From an uncultured Anaerosolibacter sp. (GTDB taxonomy: Bacteria > Bacillota_A > Clostridia > Peptostreptococcales > Thermotaleaceae): a DNA stretch of 15,979 bases. The stretch is taken from NCBI GenBank assembly GCA_937948705.1, contig CALECF010000232.1, positions 1 through 15,979 on the forward strand, written 5' to 3'. The notes beneath the pieces were generated by a model. The model did not search any database. It was not told the DNA's origin and worked only from the letters and a program-made list of their open reading frames with translations. A program made the position numbers and the translations under genes. Below are positions 8,956 to 15,979 of the stretch, one piece after another (the stretch's first letter is position 1; each line of letters starts with the position of its first letter).

Positions 8956-10140
8956 CTACTCTCCAACGCTAAGCCATTTTTCACCTGTAATCTTAATGGC
9001 TATTGCCCCTAGGGGAGCCGTTATCATGATAGATAGTACTGAGATAGCAAGAATAATATCTCCAGAGGGTATACCTGCCGCCAAAGGTACTGCGCCAATG
9101 GCTGCCTGAACCGTTGCCTTTGGTATATATGCAAAGACACAAAAGAATCGTTCCTTCCAGTTTAAGTTCGTTCCTGCAACAGACACCAATACGCCCATAC
9201 TTCTACCAATAAGACCAATAGTAATAATAAGAAGCCCTATGAGTCCAGAATCCAGTGCTACATAGATATTTACTTGGGCACCAACAAGAACAAACAATAG
9301 CAACTCAGCAAATACCCATATCTTGTTAAACTTTTCTGCTAAACGGTTTGCTACTTTAGGCTGTTTCTCCAAGATGATAAATCCGATGGTCATTACCCCT
9401 AAAAGACTCGCTATAGGAATAATATCCTTTAATGCATCTTCTAGACTAGTGAGAACAATAGCAGTACTTAAGATCATGAGTGTCTTCTTCGTATCTCGAA
9501 TATGAAAGCTTTGAAAAATAGTAACGATCCATGCCGCCATAACAATCCCAAGTATAATTCCTAAAACAATAGAAATAGGTATATCTAAGAACTTTCTTGC
9601 TACATTAATATTACTACTCCCATACAAACCGAGAAAAGTAGAAAACAGAGTGATTGCAAAAACATCATCGATGGAGGCTCCTGCCAATATAAGGGTGGGA
9701 ATTCCCTTTTTTTGTCCCATCTTTCTTTCAATAAAGCCAAGCATCGATGGCACTACCACTGCCGGAGACACTGCCGCAATGATAAATCCTAACATACCAG
9801 CTTCAACCTTCGTTATTCCTAATAGATAACTGGCAGCAAATAGAATGGTGAAACCTTCAAACAACCCTGGAATACAGCTCATTTTCATTGCCGGTACCCC
9901 CACCTTATTAAGGGTTTCTTTTTTAATTCCTAAGCCAGCCCTAAGTAGTATTACAACAAGTGCTATTTTCCTTAGTTCTGAAGAAATATTAAGAATATCC
10001 TTTCCGATGAAATTCAACCCATAGGGACCAATCACAATTCCTAATATCAGCATGCCTAACAAACCAGGTAGTTTGAGCTTATCAAAAGCTTTGTTCGCTA
10101 ACAATCCCAGTAGAATAATTACACTAAGACTAAGGGCCAT
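8956..10140 (-). CDS. Cation:proton antiporter under fluoride riboswitch control
   Basis: A 394-residue integral membrane protein of the monovalent cation:proton antiporter superfamily (CPA type, Kef/NapA-like transport domain). About 11-12 hydrophobic helices are visible. Family signs are the N-terminal helix pair with LPGLLGMLILGIVIGPYG, the discontinuous-helix region GFIIAAVSPAVVVPSMLG, and the acidic pair in ASIDDVFAITLF where the ion-binding Asp residues sit. The start is ATG 10140, since GAGGAGG lies 9 bases upstream; an earlier ATG at 10188 would put this site inside the gene. No C-terminal regulatory (TrkA-N) domain is present. A fluoride riboswitch with its terminator precedes the gene, so it should be expressed when fluoride rises. 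Antiporters are known, less common members of fluoride riboswitch regulons. The transported ion is not known. Confidence 0.9.
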   Translation of the reverse strand: MALSLSVIILLGLLANKAFDKLKLPGLLGMLILGIVIGPYGLNFIGKDILNISSELRKIALVVILLRAGLGIKKETLNKVGVPAMKMSCIPGLFEGFTILFAASYLLGITKVEAGMLGFIIAAVSPAVVVPSMLGFIERKMGQKKGIPTLILAGASIDDVFAITLFSTFLGLYGSSNINVARKFLDIPISIVLGIILGIVMAAWIVTIFQSFHIRDTKKTLMILSTAIVLTSLEDALKDIIPIASLLGVMTIGFIILEKQPKVANRLAEKFNKIWVFAELLLFVLVGAQVNIYVALDSGLIGLLIITIGLIGRSMGVLVSVAGTNLNWKERFFCVFAYIPKATVQAAIGAVPLAAGIPSGDIILAISVLSIMITAPLGAIAIKITGEKWLSVGE

Positions 10141-10214
10141 ACGGCTCCGCCTCCTCTTTAAAATATAGTCTTTCCTACGTTGCAGCATAAGTTGAAAAAA
10201 ACTGCCAAAAACAC

Positions 10215-10252
10215 AAAAAACCTACTAGGGCTAGTATAGTAGCCGAAGTAGG
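10215..10252 (-). terminator. Riboswitch-controlled terminator (expression platform)
   Basis: On the minus strand CCTACT-TC-GGCTA-CTATAC-TAGCC-CT-AGTAGG-TTTTTT forms a stem of 6 plus 5 bp with a symmetric internal loop and ends in six T. Its 5' arm CCTAC is also the 3' end of the fluoride aptamer, so aptamer and terminator compete. Confidence 0.92.
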
Positions 10253-10303
10253 AGCCATTAATTGCACTTGATGCAATGATTAAAGGCGAGCTCCATCGCC
10301 TAT
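10246..10303 (-). promoter_or_regulatory. Fluoride riboswitch aptamer (crcB motif)
   Basis: The minus strand reads GGCGATGGAGCTCGCC, then a hairpin ATTGCA/TGCAAT, then TAATGGCTCCTAC. This matches the crcB-motif layout: a first hairpin GGCG/CGCC whose loop GGAGC pairs with the downstream GCTCC to form the pseudoknot, and a second hairpin followed by the conserved TnATGGCnnCTAC segment. It lies about 110 bases upstream of the antiporter start and overlaps a terminator. In known fluoride switches, bound fluoride stabilises the pseudoknot and prevents terminator formation, turning the gene on. Confidence 0.95.
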
Positions 10304-10484
10304 GATTCTGTATCATAATTTTCCAACAATTTTTATTATACTACAAGTTCCAAATTGGTCAATAGTGTAAAAAAACTGTTTTAGAAAATAATTACTATTG
10401 AATTTTTTTCTTTTTTCAGCAAATAAAACATAGGTTGAATAGTATATAATGTTAATATCACTACCTATTTGAAAAGAGGTGAAC

Positions 10485-11342
10485 ATGATGCCTTCAGCTT
10501 CTATGGAATGGGCAAGATTAATTGAAGAGATCAAGGATATTCCTGAAATTTTCAAACATTGTCTTTCACAAATTTTAGGTGAAGCAGCTGCACTCCCATA
10601 CTTAATTTATGCGCCACAGGATACATGGAGAAAACGAGTTATTTATGATAAATTACTCTTTATTCACAATAAACAAGCCTACATATTAGAAAACGTAGAT
10701 GGCCGAATTGTAACTGTTTGTCATCCCTTTGAGCATATTATTAACATCGAACATGGAAAGATTCTATTGTATTCATGGATCAGGATTGAGTCTGTCATTG
10801 ATAACAATATCATAAGCTCTATTGTTGAATATAATACGGTGCTGGAGCCTTTGTTTAAAGAAATCCTAGGTACTATACGTGATGCAATAGCAAATACGAA
10901 AGTGAATTTTATAGATACCCATGACAGCTTTTATAGCATCAAAGATCTAACCTGTAGGCTTGAAAATTATACAAGCACTAGTCTTTTACCTAATCAAAAA
11001 GTAATGGGTGCGATGTTCCAGCCTGCCCTTTACAAAAGTTCCTGGTTTATTTCAAAACAGATTCTGATCCCCAATCAATTAATCATACTTACCCATGAAG
11101 AATTCATTATTTATAAAGAAGAATTTGAAAAAGCGGATATACGAAAATTTGGCGGTGTATGGTTGTATCTTCCCGTGAATAAAATCCGAGAAATAGAATG
11201 TACCCCAGATACTTCTGCTAACCTTGTCGACCTATCTATTCGCTTGAATGGATCTAAAAGGATCACTCTCACATACCCTTTAAAACGAAGCGATGACGTC
11301 CGTGCCCTCATTTCCCATATGCATGCCCAAATGAGAACATAG
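10485..11342 (+). CDS. Unrecognised protein, possibly two PH-like domains
   Basis: A 285-residue protein that I do not recognise. The start is ATG 10485 (or the ATG right after it), as AAGAGG stands just upstream; a GTG at 10479 overlaps that site. A TATAAT (10445-10450) is a likely -10. A short helical N-terminus (EWARLIEEIKDIPEIFKHCL) is followed by beta-rich stretches. The first (about 53-100) has DKLLFIHNKQAYILE and IINIEHGKILLYSWIRIESV. The second (about 190-285) has QLIILTHEEFIIYKEE and YLPVNKIREIECTPD and ends in the helix DDVRALISHMHAQM. The second pattern resembles bacterial PH-like folds, and the first may be a diverged copy; this is an inference from strand pattern only. There is no signal peptide and no strongly hydrophobic helix. 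The gene is a single unit with its own hairpin behind it. Confidence 0.75.
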   Translation: MMPSASMEWARLIEEIKDIPEIFKHCLSQILGEAAALPYLIYAPQDTWRKRVIYDKLLFIHNKQAYILENVDGRIVTVCHPFEHIINIEHGKILLYSWIRIESVIDNNIISSIVEYNTVLEPLFKEILGTIRDAIANTKVNFIDTHDSFYSIKDLTCRLENYTSTSLLPNQKVMGAMFQPALYKSSWFISKQILIPNQLIILTHEEFIIYKEEFEKADIRKFGGVWLYLPVNKIREIECTPDTSANLVDLSIRLNGSKRITLTYPLKRSDDVRALISHMHAQMRT

Positions 11343-12287: not shown

Positions 12288-12353
12288 TACACGAATCGGC
12301 TTACTTTGGTGAATACTAATTATATGTATGAATTACTCTAAGGAGGTTTTCCA

Positions 12354-12599
12354 ATGAATATAAAAATTTTAGAGCACGTATGTTGAAGTGGTAGTGAAAT
12401 GGAGCCCATCGTTGATGCGGCACTTTCTAAGCTAGGCTTAGCTGTTGATTTTGAAATCATAAGTGACGCCAGGGACATTGTGAAACATGGTGTTATGAAC
12501 CCACCTGCTTTACTAGTGAATGGTACTGTCATAATTGCCGGTAGAATGCCCACCGTTGACGAAGTTGTTGAGGTAATTAAAGCATTCCAATCTCTATGA
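12354..12599 (+). CDS. Probable selenocysteine-containing thioredoxin-like protein (in-frame TGA)
   Basis: An 81-residue reading frame with one in-frame TGA (12384-12386) at codon 11, right after Cys10: MNIKILEHVC-U-SGSEMEP. The ATG at 12354 has a perfect AAGGAGG 7 bases upstream. The only ATG after the TGA (12399) has no good ribosome site, and starting there would lose the first strand and active site. Residues 1-81 fit the small thioredoxin-like 'redox-active disulfide protein 2' (Thioredoxin_3) family: strand MNIKILE, active-site Cys at the head of helix 1, the cis-Pro loop GVMNPPALLVNG, then AGRMPTVDEVVEVI. The protein on both sides of the TGA belongs to one fold in one frame, which argues for recoding to selenocysteine rather than a stop. 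The final TGA (12597) is taken as the true stop. It is probably co-transcribed with the RIC gene. A 4-bp hairpin (AUGG-AGC-CCAU) lies about 17 bases after the TGA; I could not confirm a convincing SECIS by eye. Confidence 0.82.
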
Positions 12600-15543: not shown

Positions 15544-15979
15544 TTAAGCCAATGCACCTTCTGTACCTAATATCGCACCCATATCCGCTTCAACATTTGA
15601 GATTGGTGTAACATTGAAGTTGTCCACCAATACCTGCAATACATTTGGTGAGATAAATGCAGGCAATGAAGGCCCTAAATGAATATTTTTTATGTCTAAG
15701 GACAGCAGTGTTAGCAAAATACACACAGCCTTTTGCTCATACCAAGAAAGAATCATTGATAGAGGTAATTCATTCACGCTGCACTCAAATGCTTCAGCAA
15801 GGGCGCCAGCTACCTTTATCGCTGAATAGGCATCATTGCATTGTCCCATATCTAAAAGTCTTGGGAGACCAGCAACAGTACCAAACTCCATTTTATTAAA
15901 TCTAAATTTTCCACATGCCAATGTTAGGATGATTGTATCCTGTGGTGCTTTTTCTGCAAATTCTGTATAGTAATTTCGT
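15544..15979 (-). CDS. hcp: Hybrid cluster protein (hydroxylamine/NO reductase), C-terminal part
   Basis: Partial gene; the frame is open to the right edge, so the true start is outside the window. About 144 C-terminal residues are visible. They begin [20 protein letters not shown] and continue with [35 protein letters not shown], where the cysteines of ACGKF and GQCND are ligands of the hybrid 4Fe-2O-2S cluster. SWYEQKAV follows, whose Glu is also a cluster ligand. The end [21 protein letters not shown] fits the family. Hcp reduces nitric oxide or hydroxylamine in anaerobes and is usually controlled by HcpR/FNR-type regulators; its own promoter is not visible here. A TTG inside the fragment (15921) is not the start. 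Confidence 0.96.

Follow-up and report, generated by a model that had tools for sequence, protein, structure and literature searches.

A predicted selenoprotein with a Cys-Sec pair

The gene at positions 12354-12599 (+) of the window, i.e., the whole stretch of 15,979 nucleotides of Anaerosolibacter DNA analysed here, very probably codes for a true bacterial selenoprotein, 81 residues long, in which the UGA at codon 11 is read as selenocysteine (Sec). Comparison with relatives backs the recoding signals, the Cys/Sec exchange and the fold. A reading made earlier from the sequence only had proposed recoding of the TGA to Sec, and the proposal was backed by the conservation of the codon, the exchange with Cys, the covariation of a SECIS hairpin and the sel genes found in the genomes of relatives. 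SelB together with tRNA-Sec would decode the UGA, steered by the hairpin lying downstream.

The ribosome-binding site AAGGAGGT (12340-12347, +) is placed 6 nt ahead of the ATG at 12354, and an SD-like sequence likewise precedes the start codon in close orthologs. The frame reads MNIKILEHVC-TGA-SGSEMEPIVD...MNPPALL...FQSL and closes with the terminal stop TGA at 12597-12599. The putative Sec codon (TGA, 12384-12386, +) adjoins the TGT codon of Cys10 (12381-12383, +), the active-site motif being C10-U11-S12-G13, so that no CxxC redox centre is present. Within the loop MNPPALL (12495-12515, +), read as a cis-Pro loop from the sequence, Pro51 was invariant in an alignment of 17 rows (A2). The frame, the ideal ribosome site, the TGA next to Cys10 and Gly13 were all present where they had been claimed, and the Thioredoxin_3-type fold was confirmed by Pfam (PF13192), which gave 57.9 bits when Sec was replaced by Cys in the query, the gathering score being 24.8 (residues 1-76 of the protein, 1-76 of the 76 profile positions).

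Past the internal TGA the frame stays open for 70 codons. With translation table 11, the only ORF of at least 60 aa in this frame was one of 66 aa from ATG 12399, exactly the truncated product to which gene calling had been expected to reduce the gene. Eight database versions of the window protein were returned, all of 64-66 aa, the window's own and seven others; because these seven start at the equivalent of Met16, after the Sec codon, the redox centre is absent from the annotation. When the window was scanned on both strands for ATG codons preceded by an SD-like sequence and followed within 19 codons by an in-frame TGA, only this place emerged.

Conservation of the TGA codon in relatives

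A scan of genome contigs yielded two loci, both from Anaerosolibacter (L001, of A. carboniphilus DSM 103526, and L002), with TGA at codon 11 in both. When the window protein was searched against 297 related genomes, matches were obtained in 120, and reading of the frames gave TGA at codon 11 in 22 genes beyond that of the window, from 20 genomes (two genes each in G001 and G002), with tblastn identities to the window protein of 29-82%. The question raised by the sequence-only reading, whether relatives carry a true stop or a residue other than Cys at this codon, was answered by the 24 sequences visible as DNA, window included, among which 23 had TGA and one had TGC (Cys). A sequencing error as the origin of the TGA was very unlikely, since 22 other genes carry TGA at the same codon, and it was ruled out on this ground.

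The profile of A2, run on 247 genomes and reported to E 1e-16, placed the 22 TGA members and one member without TGA at 79.6 bits or higher, the next 14 rows being CxxC proteins without TGA at 73.2 bits or lower; this gap is partly built in, because 16 of the 23 top members are rows of A2. The same branch set was recovered in a second search over 198 genomes. Class-wide the Sec branch was rare (five genes in four genomes, in a sample of 391 genomes).

Sec11 was constant in the 23 Sec members (window included), whereas the preceding residue was Cys in 15 (C-U) and Gly in eight (G-U); Ser14 was nearly invariant. The idea that a Cys-Sec pair substitutes for CxxC accordingly stood for the window protein but not for the family, of which the pair is not the invariant centre. 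Since Cys10 is Gly in 8/23 members, the C-U pair can be considered as a putative catalytic unit only.

The ten codons before the TGA differed between the window and L001 by five synonymous and two non-synonymous changes (3/10 codons identical in DNA), and between the window and L002 by three and one, respectively (6/10 identical). Straight after the TGA, 13/13 codons were DNA-identical to L001 and 11/13 to L002, as compared with 19/53 further on for each of the two loci.

SECIS hairpin

A predicted bacterial SECIS hairpin, GCCCAUC-GUU-GAUGCGGC, with 7 bp, one bulged base and the apical loop GUU (12411-12413), was located at 12404-12421 (+), its start being 17 nt and its loop 24 nt past the UGA. 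The bacterial SECIS rules given in a 2026 review (PMC13188914) comprise a 3-9 nt loop having G in its first two positions, a stem of 4-16 bp, a UGA-to-loop distance of 16-37 nt and a minimum free energy of -7.5 kcal/mol or lower. The window hairpin fell within the four constraints published there, with its GUU loop, 7 bp plus one bulge, the above spacing and -9.3 kcal/mol for 47 nt.

A common hairpin with the same spacing was found in the 23 Sec sequences, the commonest form being G-C-C-C-A-U-C, a loop GUU, GUC or GUG, G-A-U-G, one bulged base and G-G-C. All seven pairs were kept in 18/23 sequences and five in the lowest two, and 95.7% of the 161 cells of the alignment (A3) were paired; RNAalifold recovered the same helix unprompted. 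Against a shuffle control that takes no account of relatedness among the sequences, three pairs changed on both sides (5/500 shuffles as high), and both the eight cells changed on both sides and the covariation score of 0.207 were equalled in 0/500 shuffles each, while the number of further pair types, one of the five covariation measures, was not raised (358/500 shuffles as high). Compensation involved an Ile codon AUC changed to a Val codon with a silent GAU to GAC change in the paired Asp codon (L016, L047, and L054), and CCC changed to CCU with the partner G changed to A in four sequences, a fifth one (L048) being left with a U-G pair. The Cys form described below kept 0/7 hairpin pairs, and 41 distinct CxxC paralogs had a mean of 2.1. 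Folds of single sequences were no more stable than shuffles (z of -0.18 for the window and -1.35 to 0.39 in a set of eight sequences); in this set, L019 showed a different minimum-energy fold, and L022, which formed the hairpin in part and reached only -6.8 kcal/mol, would miss the energy limit.

Sec machinery and the Cys counterpart

The genes selA, selB, selC, and selD were present in both Anaerosolibacter genomes with close orthologs. Over the 20 Sec genomes, selB exceeded the cut-off in 18 and tRNA-Sec also in 18 (2/2, with ARAGORN in agreement, plus 16/19, the three of these 19 without it being G061, G069, and G029, the last one carrying the Cys form). In the 8 of 21 genomes (20 Sec genomes plus G029) in which selD and selA were sought, selD was over cut-off in seven (not G029) and selA was found in five (not G029, G061 or G069); all seven selD genes contain TGA, those of G061 and G069 among them. 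These two genomes, of the 20, displayed no selB over cut-off, no tRNA-Sec and no selA, which we read as incompleteness because the assemblies are of limited size (2.1 and 1.6 Mb, respectively) and yet possess selD with TGA. The 18/20 figure for selB says little by itself, because selB was also found in 15/17 genomes in which the match was to a CxxC protein; the telling point is that selB is absent in the sole genome with the Cys form, G029.

In this genome, TGC replaces TGA in the gene L020, the sole DNA-visible member without TGA, which reads V-C-C-K-G-G-K and whose product is identical to the database protein P0010 (Serpentinicella alkaliphila). No selB over cut-off, no tRNA-Sec (E 1e-9) and no selD or selA (E 1e-20) were found in G029. 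In its locus (L078), the thioredoxin gene sits between two blocks of gene clusters, one with c8, c9, and c17 and the other with c10, c11, c0, and c12; both blocks recur on either side of the gene in the Sec loci L072 and L076 and, apart from c17, in the Sec locus L073. These common flanking clusters suggest that the Cys form of G029 and the Sec forms are orthologs between which Cys and Sec have been exchanged. P0011, a second CC protein, is known only from a database entry on a contig of 1,076 bases, and Cys10 is retained in both P0010 and P0011.

Alternative readings of the UGA codon

The UGA could be a true stop, the product being either the 66-residue protein from ATG 12399 or that of a decaying gene, as the 64-66 aa proteins of this kind in databases would fit; we hold this to be most improbable. 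The changes in the ten codons ahead of the TGA are mostly silent, the SD belongs to ATG 12354, with no clear SD ahead of ATG 12399, and Met16 is missing in 15 of the 22 other Sec members, and on these grounds an internal start was discarded; moreover, the TGA is conserved over 23 genes and a 66-aa product would be without the first strand and the redox residues. Reading of the UGA as another amino acid, e.g., Trp, whether through natural suppression or a variant code, would agree with four metagenome proteins of the branch, present as protein records only (P0012, P0014, P0017, and P0022), that have Trp in the Sec column, but these are probably gene calls in which TGA was translated with table 4. 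Furthermore, UGA also acts as a stop in the window, where it ends 3 of the 12 ORFs checked, the gene at 12354 included, which rules out a variant code, and the exchange visible in DNA is with TGC (Cys); given also the SECIS covariation and the sel genes, we give hardly any credence to an amino acid other than Sec.

Relation to known families

With Sec as the preferred reading of codon 11, the window protein has the fold, the length and the conserved Pro loop of the MTH895/ArsE family (TIGR00412, also called "redox-active disulfide protein 2"; structure 1ilo, 28% identical). It obtained 55.4 bits against TIGR00412, under the cut-off of 62, and membership over cut-off was therefore rejected; out of eight branch relatives, one of them the CC form, one reached 66.1 bits and the rest remained under 62. 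In contrast to this family, the branch presents C-U-x-G or G-U-x-x in place of the CxxC found in 1ilo and in the tandem paralogs, together with a Sec codon and a SECIS. Redox-active disulfide protein 2 has been described from arsenic operons that also contain CcdA, thioredoxin and, in 7/8 cases, ArsC (PMC2963123); it belongs to the same family, and the available portion of that paper mentions no Sec form. In NCBIfam release 20 there was no model whose cut-off the window protein passes.

According to the available text of PMC5330540, the Brachyspira selenoproteins Sec.1 and Sec.2 (PF13192) carry Sec in a short N-terminal extension (column 26), the domain starting at column 53 and its CXXC occupying columns 61-64. 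They share with the window protein the Pfam domain, the Sec/Cys exchange, a truncated or missed annotation and the clustering with a Cys paralog, whereas Sec11 of the window protein lies inside the active-site loop of a domain beginning with residue 1; identity with them was rejected, since the window Sec is not in an N-terminal extension. Table 1 of the 2026 review (PMC13188914) includes only Sec.1 (CxU) and Sec.2 (UxC) as PF13192 selenoproteins, the Sec branch being absent from it; SaoT appears with UxxC and the SO_0444-family efflux transporter as a UxC selenoprotein.

The SAO operon (SaoT, NF040730; exporter SaoE, NF040736) similarly combines a thioredoxin-like selenoprotein with an exporter, and the permease found beside the Sec branch had SaoE as its best match (125.6 bits, cut-off 325). 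However, SaoT has UxxC where the window protein has U-S-G-S, and its model was not among the matches of the window protein at E up to 10, a range in which the HMMER filters drop most matches above 0.1; identity with SaoT was rejected on the motif and on the failure of NF040730 to match branch proteins. The SO_0444 transporter (NF033936) is related to the neighbouring ArsP_1 permease (92.7 bits), which has U-x-C in three genomes, but this permease stays under the cut-off of 300 and is a neighbour, not the thioredoxin itself.

Genomic neighbourhoods

Neighbourhoods of the family were compared by tblastn over 24 loci, the extent of the flanks differing between loci. An ArsP_1-type permease adjoins the Sec member in 11/20 genomes, namely G001, G002 (opposite strand), G043, G018, G014, and G068 (fragments only), and, as a divergent two-gene, split ArsP_1-like permease beside a Gly-Sec member, G033, G061, G069, G044, and G022 (loci L079, L039, L040, L050, and L083). 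The fragments of G068 that match the permease lie between ArsR and the CxxC gene (L075:6386-6486). The permease of G043 gave 250.9 bits for PF03773, and the two halves of the G022 pair gave 55.6 and 27.0, the latter under the gathering score of 32.3. At 12/23 Sec loci, the window copy included, no permease match occurred in the stretch searched, whose flanks differ. ArsR-type regulators were nearby in G001, G002, G043, G018, G068, G014, and G017 (family confirmed for the G001 protein), and a CxxC paralog is directly upstream in seven loci (G001, G002, G043, G068, G014, G097, and G158).

The permeases of G001, G043, and G014 have an in-frame TGA at S-P-F-U-S-C-S, a position occupied by Cys in G018 and G021 (L073 and L087). 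These TGA-bearing genes, upstream of the thioredoxin pair at L069:6101-7048 (+), L074:7210-8157 (-), and L077:5664-6611 (+), are likely to encode a further selenoprotein of the operon; the stretch following the permease TGA showed no standard SECIS loop in the three loci. In G021, a set of CxxC thioredoxin, permease and ArsR was observed between selB and the tRNA-Sec gene on one contig (L087:6594-6827 (-)).

In the window, a RIC-type iron-sulfur repair protein (TIGR03652, 249.9 bits, cut-off 204.7) is encoded upstream on the same strand, 66 bp off; RIC was not found upstream of the Sec gene in L001 or L002. Downstream and convergent are genes for a DUF1450 protein and for an oxidoreductase that combines the domains Pyr_redox_2 and Rubredoxin_C, 89 and 79% identical, respectively, to their L001 counterparts. 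Near the window end, the ORF 15544-15921 (-) matches part of a 581-aa ORF of L002 with 87% identity across 121 residues; this L002 ORF, which lies two genes upstream of the selenoprotein gene, we take by eye to be a hybrid cluster protein. A fluoride riboswitch (Rfam RF01734, 43.3 bits) occurs at 10242-10309 (-), preceding a 410-aa ORF (8956-10188, -), presumably a cation/proton antiporter as judged by eye, and the 287-aa ORF at 10479-11342 (+) matched nothing in Pfam or NCBIfam at E values of 0.001 or lower.

Proposed chemistry and role

The Sec branch would constitute a small side branch of MTH895/ArsE-like thioredoxins in which the CxxC centre has been lost and replaced by a selenol beside the first Cys position, as C-U or G-U followed by x-x-S. 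Sec11 would be the attacking nucleophile and, in C-U members such as the window protein, Cys10 could act as resolving partner by closing a Cys-Sec selenosulfide; the Sec protein may then be re-reduced by a CxxC thioredoxin, for which the tandem paralog of seven loci is a candidate. As judged from the neighbouring genes, a role as thiol/selenol relay or in metal(loid) transfer with the ArsP_1-type permease, under ArsR-type control, is plausible, although we place it a little short of even. A more elaborate and rather doubtful version is an as yet undescribed metal(loid) export module, formed by an ArsR-controlled operon with Sec in both the ArsP_1-type permease (S-P-F-U-S-C-S) and the Cys-Sec thioredoxin, in which the CxxC thioredoxin would be the electron donor and the Sec-x-Cys site of the pump would receive from the selenol either a reducing equivalent or a soft metal(loid).

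Catalysis could instead depend on a single selenol, Sec11 acting alone in U-x-x-S like monothiol redoxins, with Cys10 outside the mechanism. The constancy of Sec11 in 23/23 members, against 15/23 for Cys10 with Gly in the other eight, and the nearly invariant Ser14 make this a real possibility, to which we incline less than to its opposite; the two CC proteins and the 15 C-U members retain Cys10, which suggests that it has a function in them. As regards the window copy, it might serve in nitrosative-stress defence, by repair or reduction of nitrosylated thiols, and not in metal(loid) export, as could be proposed from the RIC/YtfE-type repair gene upstream on the same strand, the downstream oxidoreductase with Pyr_redox_2 and Rubredoxin_C domains and the fragment at 15544-15921 related to the presumed hybrid cluster protein. 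We consider this unlikely, as L001 and L002 are without RIC upstream and their upstream gene is divergent. Nevertheless, as a stand-alone gene next to one for iron-sulfur repair, the window copy could conceivably have nitrosative or metal stress as its own trigger.

Taken as a Sec-bearing redox protein with a putative part in metal(loid) handling, the window protein adds a selenocysteine branch to the thioredoxin family found in arsenic operons, at a Sec position not used by the two PF13192 selenoproteins tabulated in the 2026 review (PMC13188914). The syntenic Cys ortholog, from a genome without detectable Sec machinery, would provide a natural pair for assessing what a small thioredoxin gains from selenium, and the link with a permease that partly contains Sec would open a role of selenium in metal(loid) export to direct testing.
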